The position numbers were made by a program, and so were the translations under genes. DNA of 64,000 nucleotides from Ureibacillus sp. (GTDB lineage Bacteria; Bacillota; Bacilli; Bacillales_A; Planococcaceae): positions 1 to 64,000 of the forward strand of contig JAPSJC010000001.1 of assembly GCA_031178355.1 (NCBI GenBank), in the 5' to 3' direction. A model generated the notes under the pieces. It ran no database searches, was not told the DNA's origin, and saw nothing but the letters and a program-made list of their open reading frames with translations. Each line of letters begins with the position of its first letter. Position 1 is the first letter of the stretch. Positions 8,866 to 32,648 of the stretch are shown here, piece by piece.

Positions 8866-8895
8866 TTGACAATTCTAATTCGCTACACGTAATAT
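8866..8895 (+). promoter_or_regulatory. Promoter of the hisS-aspS T-box transcript
   Basis: A consensus TTGACA (8866-8871) is separated by 18 nt from TAATAT (8890-8895). Transcription would start near 8902, just before the T-box leader. Confidence 0.75.
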
Positions 8896-8901
8896 AAGTA
8901 G

Positions 8902-9190
8902 TAATGTTAAGATAAGTAAATTGCCATTGACCAAGGAAGTAACTATTACCGATGCTGAAAAGAGAGGGAAAGACCACGGCTGAAATCTTTCCTACAGTAT
9001 GTATGTGTGAAAAACGCTTGCGAGGCTTTCCCTCGAACATTTAGTAATTAGTAGGGGGAAACGGAATCGGCCGTTATCCGATTAGAGAGGGTGTGCTCTG
9101 TTTTTTGCACATCAACTAGGGTGGAACCGCGGAAGTTACAGCTTTCGTCCCTTGCAGTTAATGCAATGGACGGAAGCTTTTTTATTTATT
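8902..9190 (+). ncRNA. T-box leader of hisS-aspS
   Basis: This leader RNA senses uncharged tRNA and controls read-through into hisS. The T-box sequence AGGGTGGAACCGCGG lies at 9118-9132. The competing terminator follows: AGCTTTCGTCC (9140-9150) pairs with GGACGGAAGC (9168-9177), extended by an inner TTGCA/TGCAA pair, and a T tract runs from 9178. Stem I shows AGTA at 8938-8941 and the apical hairpin with GGCTGAAA (8967-8992). On the opposite strand the specifier loop reads GAAA-AAC-G (9009-9016), flanked by CAAG/CTTG (8932-8935 / 9017-9020). Neither a His nor an Asp codon lies in that loop; AAC (Asn) occupies the position where the alaS leader in this window has GCT. Confidence 0.93.
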
Positions 9191-9280: not shown

Positions 9281-10549
9281 ATGTCTTTTAAAGTACCTAG
9301 AGGAACACAAGATATTTTGCCTGAACAAACGCCAAAATGGCAAAAAGTTGAATCAATATTAAGAGATTTATCACGTGTGTATCGATATAGAGAGATTAGA
9401 ACTCCAATGTTTGAACAAACAGAATTGTTCCAACGTGGTGTAGGAGATACGACAGATATCGTACAAAAAGAAATGTACACATTTGAAGATCGTGGAGGTC
9501 GTTCTTTAACATTAAGACCAGAAGGAACTGCATCAGCTGTACGTTCTTATGTAGAACATAAAATGTTTGGTTCACCAGATCAACCAGTAAAACTGTCCTA
9601 TATTGGACCAATGTTCCGTTATGAAAGACAGCAAGCAGGCCGTTATCGTCAATTTGTACAATATGGAGTTGAAGCGATCGGTTCAGCAGATCCAGCTATT
9701 GATGCAGAAGTGATTTCACTGGCAATGGATGTTTATCAATCAGTAGGGCTAAAAGATTTAAAACTACACCTGAATTCTTTAGGTGATAAAGAAACACGAG
9801 ATGCACATCGTACAGCTCTAATTAATCATTTTAAACCGTCTATTGGCGAGTTTTGTTCGGATTGTCAGAATCGTTTGGAAAAAAACCCTTTACGAATATT
9901 GGATTGTAAAGTCGATCATGAACACCCATTAATGCAATCAGCACCAAAATTAACGGACTATTTAACAGAACAATCATCTGTTTATTTTGATAAGGTAAAA
10001 TCATATTTAGATGTTCTTGGTATTGACTATGAAGTGGACCCAAATTTAGTACGTGGTTTAGACTACTACAATCATACTGCATTTGAAATTATGAGTACTG
10101 CAAGTGGTTTTGGTGCAATTACAACGCTTTGTGGTGGTGGTCGATATAATGGGTTAGTTGAAGGCATTGGTGGACCAGATGTTCCAGGTATAGGTTTTGC
10201 CCTGTCCATTGAAAGATTGCTATTAGCATTGGAAGCAGAGGGTATTGAACTTGAAGTGGAAGATGCTTTAGATATCTATGTCGTTGCAATGGGTGAGGAA
10301 GCGAAGAAAAAGTCAGTAGAATTATTAAGTTCATTCCGTGCAAAAGGAATTTCTGCTGATATGGATTATATTGATCGTAAAATGAAAGCACAAATGAAAT
10401 CAGCAGACCGTCTTGGAGCAAAATTCGTTATTGTTATTGGTGAAACAGAACTTGAAAATGGTTCGGTGAAAATTAAAAACATGCACACTGGTAATGAGGA
10501 AAATCTGCAATTTGAAGAGTTAGTAAATTACCTATTAGAAAATAAGTAA
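9281..10549 (+). CDS. hisS: Histidyl-tRNA synthetase
   Basis: This class II synthetase charges tRNA-His with histidine. The 422 residues include motif 2 around [14 protein letters not shown] (near residue 110), the histidine-specific motif [14 protein letters not shown] (near 255), motif 3 [12 protein letters not shown] (near 305) and the C-terminal anticodon-binding domain. AAGGAG (9267-9272) lies 8 nt before the ATG. Expression is controlled by the T-box leader just upstream, and the gene forms an operon with aspS, 29 nt downstream. Confidence 0.97.
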
Positions 10550-10578: not shown

Positions 10579-12339
10579 ATGGCACAAAGAACACATGCTT
10601 GCGGTGAATTAAGTGAACAGCAAGTAGGTCAACAAATTGTAATTAAGGGATGGGTACAACGACGTCGCGATTTAGGTGGATTAATTTTCGTTGATGTACG
10701 TGATCGTACGGGGATTGTGCAAGTTGTATTTGGTGATTCAGCACCTGAGAGTTTAAAAATTGCAGAGAGAATTCGCAATGAATATGTTGTTGAAATCCAA
10801 GGTGAAGTTATATTACGTGATGAAAGTCAAATAAACCCAAATATACAAACTGGTAAAATTGAAATCGTTGCTTCTAATATCACAATAATTAATGAAGCAA
10901 AAACACCACCGTTCTCTATTGAAGATAAAGTAGAAATTGGTGAAGAAACACGTTTAAAATATCGTTACTTAGACTTACGTCGTCCAGTGATGTATAACAC
11001 TTTTAAATTGCGTTCTGATATAACTCGTTCGATTCGAAACTTTTTACAAAATGAAGGGTTTTTAGAAGTTGAAACACCAATTCTAACGAAATCAACGCCT
11101 GAAGGAGCTCGTGATTACTTAGTTCCATCACGTGTGCATGAAGGAGAATTTTATGCATTACCTCAATCACCACAATTATTTAAACAATTGTTAATGGTCT
11201 CTGGATTTGAAAAGTACTTCCAAATTGCTCGTTGTTTCCGAGATGAGGATTTACGTGCTGACCGTCAACCAGAGTTTACACAAGTTGATATTGAAACGTC
11301 ATTTATGTCTATGAACGAGATTATAGAAATGAATGAGCGATTATTATATACAGTTATGAAAGAAGTAAAGGGAATTGAGATTCAATTACCGTTACAACGA
11401 ATGACGTATGCTGATGCAATGAGCCGTTATGGTTCTGACAAACCGGACGTTCGTTTTGGTTTAGAATTAACACAAATGTCTGAAATTGTGAAAGAATCTT
11501 CATTTAAAGTTTTCGCACAAACAGTAGAAAACGGTGGAGAAGTAAAAGCAATCAATGTTAAAGGTGGTAATGATAAGTATTCACGTAAGGATATTGATGC
11601 TTTAACTGAATTCGTTGCTATTTATGGTGCTAAAGGTCTCGCTTGGATTAAAGTAACTGAAGAAGGATTTACTGGACCGATCTCTAAATTCTTTGAAGGC
11701 GCAATCGTAGAACGTATGTCGAAACAATTGAATGCAGAACCAGGAGATTTATTATTATTTGTTGCGGATAAATCATCTGTTGTCGCAGCTTCTTTAGGTG
11801 CATTACGTATGAAATTAGGGAAAGAATTAGGGTTAATTGATGAATCTCAATTTGCATTCCTTTGGATTACAGACTGGCCATTATTTGAATACGATGAAGA
11901 TGCTGACAGATACTCAGCTGCTCACCATCCATTTACTCGACCATTTGATGAAGATATAGAAAAAATGGCTACAGATCCATCTTCAGTTCGTGCCCAAGCG
12001 TACGATATTGTTTTAAATGGTTATGAACTAGGTGGTGGATCACTACGTATTTTCGAACGTGATTTACAGGAAAAAATGTTTGAAGTGCTTGGGTTCTCAC
12101 AAGAAGAAGCACAAGAACAGTTTGGGTTCCTATTGGATGCATTTGAATATGGAGTTCCTCCACATGGTGGCTTAGCATTTGGACTAGATCGTTTTGTTAT
12201 GATTCTTGCAGGAAGAACAAACCTACGTGATACAATTGCATTCCCTAAAACAGCTACAGCTAGTTGCTTATTAACAGATGCTCCAAGTGAAGTAGCTCCA
12301 GCACAATTACAGGAACTACATTTAAAAATTAATAAATAA
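10579..12339 (+). CDS. aspS: Aspartyl-tRNA synthetase
   Basis: This class IIb synthetase charges tRNA-Asp. The 586-residue length is that of bacterial AspRS with its GAD insertion. It shows an N-terminal OB anticodon-binding domain, motif 2 [14 protein letters not shown] near residue 220 and motif 3 GLAFGLDRF near 531. RRRDL in the OB domain carries Leu where non-discriminating bacterial AspRS enzymes have His, which suggests a tRNA-Asp-specific enzyme (inference from published specificity work). GGAGG precedes the ATG by 7 nt. It shares the hisS T-box transcript. No clear terminator follows before the 6S RNA promoter. Confidence 0.97.
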
Positions 12340-12547: not shown

Positions 12548-12741
12548 CGAATCCTGAAATGTATTCACATACAAGTAAACTAGTTTTGACCGAACAATAT
12601 TATGTCGGGAGCTCATATTTCTACTCAGCAAACAAGCCCGCCCGTGACGGGACGTTTAATTAGTAGTTTAGGGCACCCCCCTACGCAGTTAGCGCGGGTT
12701 CAAAACTAATATTTGTATCGTTCACTATATTTCAGGATTCG
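12548..12741 (+). ncRNA. 6S RNA (6S-1/BsrA type)
   Basis: 6S RNA mimics an open promoter and binds sigma-A RNA polymerase holoenzyme, damping transcription in stationary phase. About 190 nt are closed by a perfect 13-bp terminal stem, CGAATCCTGAAAT (12548-12560) with its complement at 12729-12741. Further pairing such as GTTTTGA/TCAAAAC and a central unpaired region build the long rod with a bubble typical of the family. The gene lies between aspS and tcdA, exactly where B. subtilis carries bsrA (6S-1). It has its own extended -10 promoter and an intrinsic terminator. Confidence 0.85.
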
Positions 12742-12767
12742 TCAATTCCTAAACTCCTTGCTGTTCT

Positions 12768-29591: not shown

Positions 29592-29846
29592 CAGAATATG
29601 ACAATACAATGATGGAAAGAGTAAGTTTTTGCTTAAACGGTACAGAAAGAGATTCCTTTGGCTGAAAGAATCTTACGAAAGCTTAACCGAAAGCTAATCC
29701 AGAGTGCAGCTAATACCTGCCGTTCACTTACGTTACAGTGCTCGAGATATGAAAATTGTATCGTTTTTGGGATCCAATTTTTATAACGAGGGTGGTACCG
29801 CGAGATAACAGTCTTCGTCCCTTATTGGGATGAGGGCTTTTTTTAT
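29592..29846 (+). ncRNA. T-box leader of alaS
   Basis: This RNA reads uncharged tRNA-Ala. The T-box AGGGTGGTACCGCG is at 29789-29802. It is followed by the terminator GTCTTCGTCCC (29811-29821) / GGGATGAGGGC (29827-29837) and a T tract. Stem I has AGTA (29620-29623) opposite GAAA-GCT-A (29689-29696), so GCT at 29693-29695 is the alanine specifier. The base pairing TGGA/TCCA (29613-29616 / 29698-29701) closes it, and the apical GGCTGAAA hairpin is present. Confidence 0.94.
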
Positions 29847-29987
29847 TTTCTTTAAACAGAAAATAGAATTGGCGGAAAAGCTTGCATTTTGGTTGATTCC
29901 AAAGAAGAATTGGCGGAATATCATATCTCTTTTAGCGGAAACAATTCGTCGCTAATCTCCATCAAAAAAATTAGGAGGAATATACAA

Positions 29988-32648
29988 ATGAAAGCATCAG
30001 ACATTCGACGCAAATATTTAGAATTTTTCATTGAAAAGGGGCACGCACAAGAACCTTCTGCTTCCTTAGTACCAATTAATGACCCTTCGTTATTATGGAT
30101 TAACTCAGGTGTTGCGACGTTAAAAAAATATTTTGACGGTCGTGTCATTCCAGATAATCCTCGTATTACAAACGCGCAAAAATCGATTCGTACAAACGAC
30201 ATTGAAAATGTAGGGAAAACTGCACGTCACCATACATTTTTTGAAATGTTAGGGAACTTCTCTATTGGGGATTACTTCAAAAAAGAAGCAATTCATTTCG
30301 CATGGGAATTCTTAACAGACTCTAAGTGGATAGGATTCGATCCAGAAAAGTTATCCATTACCCTTCATCCAGAAGACGAAGAAGCATATAACGTATGGAA
30401 AAATGAAATCGGAATTCCTGAAGACCGATTAATTCGAATCGAGGGTAACTTCTGGGATATTGGTGAAGGTCCATCTGGTCCAAACTCGGAAATATTCTAT
30501 GATCGTGGTCCTGAATATGGTAATGATGAAAGTGATCCAGAACTTTACCCAGGTGGAGAGAATGAACGTTACTTAGAAGTTTGGAACCTAGTATTTTCAC
30601 AATTTAACCATAATCCAGATGGTACTTATACTCCACTTCCAAAACAAAATATCGATACGGGTATGGGTCTTGAACGTGTGGCATCTGTAGTGCAAAATGT
30701 ACCGACAAACTATGATACAGATTTATTCATGCCAATAATTGGGAAAATCGAAGAATATGCAAACCGTTCATATAAACGACCAGGTGAAATCGATTTAAAA
30801 GAGATTTTCGGAAGTGCAGAAGATATTAACACACCATTTAAAGTAATAGCAGACCATATTCGTACTGTAGCTTTTGCAGTAGGGGATGGAGCTCTACCAT
30901 CAAATGAGGGACGAGGATATGTCTTACGTCGCTTGTTACGTCGTGCTGTTCGTTATGCTAAACAAATTGGTATTGAAAAGCCATTTATGTTTGAATTAGT
31001 ACCAACTGTTGGTGAAATTATGTCTGACTTCTATCCAGAAGTGAAAGAAAAGCAAGAATTTATTGCACGTGTTATTAAAAATGAAGAAGTACGCTTCCAT
31101 GAAACATTAGATGGAGGACTTTCGATTCTTTCAGAAGTCATCGAAAAGGAAAAAGCACGTGGCTTAACTGTTATTCCTGGAGAAGATGCATTTAAGTTAT
31201 ATGATACTTACGGTTTCCCAATCGAATTAACAGAAGAATATGCTGAAGAAGCTGGTATGACAGTAGATCACGAAGGCTTTGAAGTTGCGATGAATAAACA
31301 ACGTGAACGTGCAAGAGCAGCTCGTGCAGATGTGGATTCAATGCAAGTTCAATCAGAGGTTCTAGCAAGCTTAACGATGGAATCAAATTTTGTAGGTTAT
31401 GAAACATTACAAACAGAAACAACTGTTAGTGCAATGGTTTTAAATGGTCAAACCGTAGAAGTAGCTTCTGAAGGTGAAGAAGTTCTTGTAATTTTAGCAG
31501 AAACTCCTTTCTATGCTGAAATGGGTGGTCAAGTAGCAGATCACGGTACGATTTCAAATGATTTATTCAAAGCGTTCGTAAAAGATGTTCAAAAAGCGCC
31601 AAATGGTCAATCGTTGCACACAGTGATTATTGAATCAGGTGAAATGCATGTAAATGATCAAGTTATTGCAGTTGTAGATCGAGATGAGCGTAATCTAGTC
31701 GTAAAAAACCATACGGCCACACATATTATGCAAAGTGCACTAAAGGATGTATTAGGTCAACATGTAAATCAAGCAGGTTCATACGTAGGTCCAGATCGCT
31801 TACGATTTGACTTCTCTCATTTTGGTGCAGCAACAAAAGAAGAATTAGAGCAAATTGAACGTATCGTTAATGAAAAAATTTGGGAAGATATAAAAGTGGT
31901 TATTGAAGAAATGCCAATTGCAGAAGCAAAAGCGATGGGAGCAATGGCTCTATTCGGTGAAAAGTATGGCGACGTTGTTCGAGTTGTACAAGTAAGTGAT
32001 TATTCAGTTGAACTTTGCGGTGGTATTCATGTAAATCGTACTTCTGAGATTGGTTTGTTTAAAATTGTTTCAGAAGGCGGAATTGGTGCTGGTACTCGTC
32101 GTATTGAAGCGGTAACTGGAAAAGCTGCTTTTGAAGCAGTTAAGGAAGAACAACACGTGTTGGAACAAGCAGCTTCAGTTTTAAAAGCAAATCCAAAGGA
32201 TCTTATTCAGCGTGTGGAAAACTTACAACATGAGTTGAAAGAACTTCAACGTGAAAATGAATCATTATCTCAAAAAATTGCCAATGCACAAGCTGGTGAA
32301 GTACTTAGTGCTGCAGAAAAAATTGGAGAAGTAACGGTTTTATCTACTCGGGTTGAAGCAAAAGATAACAATCAACTTCGTCAAATGATGGATGATTTGA
32401 AAGAAAAACTAGATCGTGCTGTCATCGTGTTAGGTGCAATTGATGGAGATAAGGTAATGTTATGTGCAGGTGTAACGAAAGACTTAGTCGGTGGAAGTTA
32501 CCATGCTGGAAACATTGTAAAACAAGTGGCGGAACTTTGTGGTGGTCGCGGAGGCGGACGTCCAGATATGGCGATGGCTGGTGCAAAAGAAGTGTCTAAA
32601 CTTGATGAAGCTCTTGCAACTGTGTATGATTACGTTAAATCTATCTAA
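29988..32648 (+). CDS. alaS: Alanyl-tRNA synthetase
   Basis: AlaRS charges tRNA-Ala and clears mischarged Ser and Gly. The 886-residue protein has the class II catalytic domain at the N terminus, the editing-domain zinc motifs HTATHIM near 575 and CGGIH near 678, and the C-terminal C-Ala domain with [11 protein letters not shown] near 851. A perfect AGGAGG (29973-29978) precedes the ATG; the 33 extra codons of the longest frame lie in the leader and are rejected. Expression is governed by the T-box leader. Confidence 0.97.

Follow-up and report, generated by a model that had tools for sequence, protein, structure and literature searches.

The leader of the hisS-aspS operon in Ureibacillus sp. 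raises the question of which tRNA it reads. In the window, i.e. the whole 64,000 nt stretch analysed here (contig JAPSJC010000001.1, positions 1 to 64,000), hisS (histidyl-tRNA synthetase, 9281-10549, NCBIfam TIGR00442, 513 bits, cut-off 286.75) is followed by aspS (bacterial-type aspartyl-tRNA synthetase, 10579-12339, NCBIfam NF001750 902 bits and TIGR00459 856 bits, both above cut-off), both on the forward strand, as are all parts of the leader. A 6S RNA match (RF00013, 60.8 bits, gathering score 46.4) lies just 3' of aspS at 12548-12742 on the same strand. Annotation based on the first gene calls such leaders histidine T-boxes, as an excerpt on the S. aureus hisS-aspS operon illustrates (PMC7927825). 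Excerpts of other papers describe the class by a GACAC specifier loop, an Asp codon overlapping the His codon CAC (PMC5313534, PMC4342826; Gutierrez-Preciado 2009). The window leader agrees with these excerpts in operon, in leader position and, probably, in carrying a codon for a tRNA of the second gene's enzyme. It differs in reading AACGC where GACAC is described: with AAC for GAC and G for the following A, neither the Asp codon nor the His codon that overlaps it is left. The reading favoured here, and considered likely, is that of a transcriptional T-box sensing tRNA-Asn through AAC and raising hisS and aspS, with AspRS probably serving tRNA-Asn.

The leader spans 8918-9155 and aligns end to end with the complete Rfam T-box model (RF00230, model positions 1-219, cmscan 126 bits, E 1.5e-27, gathering score 93), which places it far above chance. 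A sigma-A-type promoter candidate, TTGACA and TAATAT separated by 18 nt, precedes it at 8866-8895 with 10 of 12 pattern matches; this site is weak when taken alone, as the pattern scan gave 2 promoter-type sites against 1.7 expected in shuffled sequence. Stem I is closed by a base helix of CAAG (8932-8935) and CUUG (9017-9020), with AGUA (8938-8941) on the 5' side of the specifier loop and GAAA-AAC-G (9009-9016) on its 3' side. A distal stem after AGAGA is also present. The T-box sequence AGGGUGGAACCGCG occupies 9118-9131, with UGGN at 9122-9125 and A9125 as N. It is followed by an intrinsic terminator at 9140-9183 (helix 9140-9178, then a U run, in the minimum-energy fold of 8918-9180), which overlaps the 3' side of the antiterminator and was not listed by a simple terminator scan. 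This strong hairpin and U run after the T-box give the layout of a transcriptional attenuator. Thus the leader has what defines RF00230 T-boxes, namely a score above the curated threshold, the base helix with a three-nucleotide specifier and following purine, UGGNACC with a competing terminator, and a position upstream of aminoacyl-tRNA synthetase genes. It departs from them in one respect: N and base 73 of the specified tRNA do not pair.

The initial annotation had drawn Stem I in this way and had taken AAC at 9013-9015 as the specifier, without GAC, GAU, CAC or CAU in the loop. The drawn layout matches the sequence exactly over 8932-9020, and none of the four codons occurs in the loop. In the Rfam register AAC-G aligns with the specifier column of the model ('uuc', then 'a'), and a hisS-specific Stem I covariance model (R1) places the same triplet. 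The alaS leader, to which the annotation had compared it, does have GAAA-GCU-A at the corresponding positions of the Rfam alignment; this T-box at 29600-29825 on the forward strand scores 85.2 bits, below the gathering score, and has GCU-A (Ala) with U as N. It is followed by a 919-aa ORF (29889-32648), taken as alaS.

Support for the Stem I drawing comes from covariation and covariance models, and none from thermodynamic folding. In 46 aligned hisS leaders, picked from those with confident automatic calls, AGUA is invariant and all four base-helix pairs have changed on both sides. Across the whole Stem I structure 89.3% of cells pair in these leaders, compared with no more than 56.2% after a shift of the 3' partners by 1-3 columns, a control that is partly biased toward the structure because the structure was derived from the same alignment; both-side changes number 163 cells versus 59.5 in shuffles. 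Free folding of Stem I alone was rejected as evidence for the register: the unconstrained minimum-energy fold pairs AAGU (8937-8940) with GCUU, engaging the conserved AGUA, and does not surpass shuffled sequence (z -0.17). The full leader does fold better than shuffles (z -3.18). The G after the specifier is normal in this genome, since several of its other T-boxes have G there (UCC-G, GUA-G, CUC-G, UGG-G and UAC-G). An assembly error at G9016 may nonetheless be present, the genome being 76% complete in 158 contigs.

Whether AAC is peculiar to this strain can be judged from hisS leaders across Bacilli. R1 was run on 200 hisS loci (80 chosen by HisRS similarity, 30 from the window's GTDB family, 60 hand-picked from family and class genomes, and 30 chosen for spread); 189 matched, leaving 178 after removal of identical leaders. 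AAC is the commoner specifier (125 of 178) and GAC accounts for the other 53, with no other triplet and none coding for His. The training set of R1 consisted of AAC and GAC leaders, so that its alignments lean toward these two and other specifiers could be missed or misplaced; R1 does find the CAC T-box of a Tetragenococcus hisS, weakly (20 bits, E 0.018). Eleven loci received no R1 assignment. Three of these were read by eye as AAC-A (L202, L203) and GAC-C (L224), six (L233, L241, L246, L247, L250 and L251) have no T-box motif within 800 nt, and the remaining two are L051, which ends before the leader, and L252. In the 178 leaders the specifier is followed by A (167), G (7) or C (4), and the AAC-G of the window recurs in two distant leaders (L232 and L234). 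Within this large class the window leader is unremarkable; the Asn form of the class has received little description in available papers. No publication stating an Asn specifier for hisS-aspS was found in a search that lay outside the surveys of Vitreschak 2008 and Gutierrez-Preciado 2009, so that novelty is not proven.

The distribution of the two codons bears on whether AAC is read as such. On a FastTree of 178 HisRS proteins the two codons require 13 interchanges, compared with a mean of 46 for shuffled labels, and branches with support of at least 95 force at least 11 of these changes; the tree is midpoint-rooted and does not give their direction. The clade that contains the window has full support; of its 66 leaders 64 have AAC and 2 GAC, and they include the 40 distinct leaders from sampled genomes of the window's GTDB family. 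Among 59 distinct leaders from sampled other families of the class, AAC is found in 16 and GAC in 43. The dominance of GAC outside the window's family, the frequent interchange of two codons one base apart and the identity of the second gene as aspS would all suit a leader for which tRNA-Asp is still the working ligand, AAC having drifted from GAC and the resulting A.C mismatch at codon position 1 being tolerated. Such tolerance is a rather improbable explanation: AAC has been kept in 64 of the 66 leaders of the window's clade, unlike drift from a codon in use, and tRNA-Asn matches AAC perfectly. As far as these sequences indicate, the specifier has alternated between codons for the two tRNAs in the range of a non-discriminating AspRS, and has never changed to His.

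Histidine enters the argument through the frame two bases on. In 156 of the 178 distinct leaders the A after the specifier and the C or U that opens the helix give CAY at +2, and four more leaders, gapped in that column, read CAY too. The loop could then be read as Asn or Asp in the +0 frame and as His in the other, sensing substrates of both enzymes; part of the text of PMC4342826 attributes to Gutierrez-Preciado 2009 a proposal of alternative structures sensing tRNA-His and tRNA-Asp. For the window such dual sensing is very doubtful, as AAC-G-C holds no His codon. The overlap is moreover a by-product of NNC followed by A and a pyrimidine: by the Rfam register it is shared by 4 of the 7 other NNC T-boxes in the window genome and by 5 of 8 in a relative with a complete genome (G106), counts that come from related, not independent, genomes and leave out one unclear leader in the former and two in the latter. 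Use of CAC would also break the first pair of the base helix, and an excerpt of PMC5313534 gives the suggestion that the GACAC loop binds mainly aspartyl-tRNA. Being present by construction and absent from the window, the overlap gives dual His sensing low weight for this leader.

True His T-boxes are available for comparison. That of hisS in the hdc cluster of Tetragenococcus plasmid pHDC resembles the window leader in the downstream hisS and in having A as N (two identical records), the latter a point that dual sensing could claim; it differs in its specifier CAC-A and in having no aspS in the annotated stretches examined. The hdc-cluster hisS of L. parabuchneri also has a true His T-box, according to an excerpt of PMC5313534. 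Unlike the Tetragenococcus gene, the hdc-cluster hisS on a Limosilactobacillus reuteri plasmid (L304, 1157-1486) gave no T-box match.

An observation on the other side concerns N. Base 73 is G in tRNA-Asn and tRNA-Asp and C in tRNA-His; A9125 cannot pair with G73 of tRNA-Asn, which counts against the reading of that tRNA. In the window genome N is Watson-Crick to base 73 in all six other T-boxes with a recovered tRNA (Ser, Val, Leu, Ile, Tyr and Gly). Of 12 T-boxes with a recovered tRNA in G106, where the tRNA search scored 150 of 275 candidates, 11 pair Watson-Crick and one by G-U. A thirteenth, for Thr (ACU, N = A), does not pair with the sole recovered tRNA-Thr (UGU, A73), which weakens the case for N = A as a unique violation. 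In an excerpt of PMC7778990, pairing of N with base 73 is described for the majority of T-boxes, and TBDB exempts His because base 73 can be paired there. As pairing is a majority rule, the T-box membership of the leader stands; standard acceptor pairing here does not.

The A is not a private feature of the window. N = A occurs in 67 of the 178 distinct leaders, i.e. all 66 of the window's clade, whichever of AAC and GAC they carry, and one of Metabacillus (L104); the other 111 have C or T. This fixation also bears on a partly decayed leader, or one that reads tRNA-Thr through ACG in the +1 frame, for which A as N would suit a tRNA with U73. Such tRNAs exist in G106 for Gly and Cys; the sole tRNA-Thr recovered there is the UGU species with A73 already mentioned. 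Moreover, the +1 frame has no conserved purine between codon and helix, all motifs are kept at 126 bits, and N = A is shared by all 66 clade leaders, with AAC and GAC alike. We know of no link between Thr and hisS-aspS, and this explanation is barely credible. An unlikely, family-wide alternative is that the contacts are split, Stem I naming tRNA-Asn or tRNA-Asp and N being fixed as the A of a true His T-box, a mismatch to G73 of those tRNAs. If so, either the 73 pair would not be needed for sensing of charging, or the switch would be tuned to weak acceptance of two tRNAs. With its overlapping His codon lost, the window genome would allow a natural test of which applies. The fixed A itself offers a cheap test of the importance of the 73 pair in a natural T-box.

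For sensing of tRNA-Asn to make sense at hisS-aspS, AspRS should serve tRNA-Asn, and the genomes of relatives point this way. AsnRS over the NCBIfam TIGR00457 cut-off is absent in 6 of 41 family genomes (these six being 98-100% complete and two of them belonging to the same genus), in 4 of 24 genomes of a second, overlapping list, and in 9 of 70 genomes of the class. Four genomes of the window's genus (G010, G029, G046 and G060), all 100% complete and two of them (G010 and G046) single contigs, have no AsnRS match over cut-off and all carry AAC leaders; most of their tested congeners have AsnRS. An AsnB-type match over cut-off, judged by the AsnB-type profile only, is also absent in four others of the AsnRS-less genomes (G002, G008, G027 and G039). 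GatB was found in 41 of 41 family genomes, including that of the window. In the AsnRS-less genomes AspRS must supply Asn-tRNA, together with GatCAB.

The RRRDL motif, at residues 28-32 of the window AspRS, had been taken in the initial annotation as a sign of a discriminating enzyme. That argument fails, since AsnRS-less genomes of the same genus have the same motif. The six AspRS motifs examined for AsnRS-less genomes are all RRRDL or KRRDL, and of 199 AspRS sequences 191 end the motif in L and 8 in F, so the motif cannot mark a discriminating AspRS, at least in this group. Given the AsnRS-less congeners with the same RRRDL, the window AspRS probably charges tRNA-Asn too. Excerpted literature is in line with such a route: S. 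aureus AspRS is treated as non-discriminating, with indirect aminoacylation as the sole asparagine route (PMC6523644), and asnS is dispensable in B. subtilis via an alternative route to Asn-tRNA (PMC12548448, citing Nair 2016). The tRNA-Asn of the window genome (anticodon GTT) has U1-A72, given as a requirement of the amidotransferase GatCAB on tRNA-Asn in an excerpt of PMC4206432. Two further tRNA-Asn genes without encoded CCA occur singly in the window genome, on contigs C118 (L027) and C152 (L028). In G106 three CCA-less tRNA-Asn genes stand in a row at about 239-base spacing (contig C1, 524400-525050, L310), possibly linked to a mobile element.

The suggestion in the initial annotation that an Asn signal is tied to asparagine supply remains plausible in itself; an association of AAC with loss of AsnRS across the tree was not found. 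Among AsnRS-less genomes with the leader, 8 carry AAC and 5 GAC, and a comparison of independent pairs gave no trend; the codon is thus not a simple consequence of AsnRS loss. In the window genome AsnRS, GatB and an AsnB-type match over cut-off are all present. Its tRNA-Asn accordingly does not depend on AspRS alone, and the indirect route would be a second one. T-boxes were clearly found at 18 sites in this genome, with a 19th match that is weak (E 0.00175); the hisS-aspS leader has the only Asn codon among those read. None of the 18 clear T-boxes lies on the asnS contig (C116) of this 76% complete assembly. A two-codon T-box of Clostridium acetobutylicum (Saad 2013, cited in PMC7778990) is reportedly also tied to tRNA-dependent Asn formation and to have two specifiers, compared with the single AAC here.

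From sequence comparison we infer that binding of tRNA-Asn, antitermination and use of two tRNAs by AspRS probably all take place in this organism. Stem I would read tRNA-Asn (anticodon GUU) through AAC, and the 3' end of the uncharged tRNA would stabilise the antiterminator at the T-box. RNA polymerase would then pass the terminator, and hisS and aspS would rise together. The additional AspRS would relieve a shortage of charged tRNA-Asn even without free asparagine, and HisRS would be carried along, as the +0 frame of the leader class keeps no His codon.

In sampled Bacilli the codon would thus reflect which tRNAs the enzyme of the second gene can charge, and Asp and Asn codons have replaced each other repeatedly. 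If this holds, T-box specifiers may help to spot synthetases of relaxed tRNA use from sequence alone, which RRRDL cannot. Other RNA elements were seen near T-boxes of these genomes. A PreQ1 riboswitch lies on the reverse strand about 0.7 kb from a Trp T-box in both the window genome (L007, 2442-2486) and G106 (L260, 2478-2522), and a Bacillaceae-1 RNA match (L011, 1754-1821, reverse strand) adjoins a Pro T-box.
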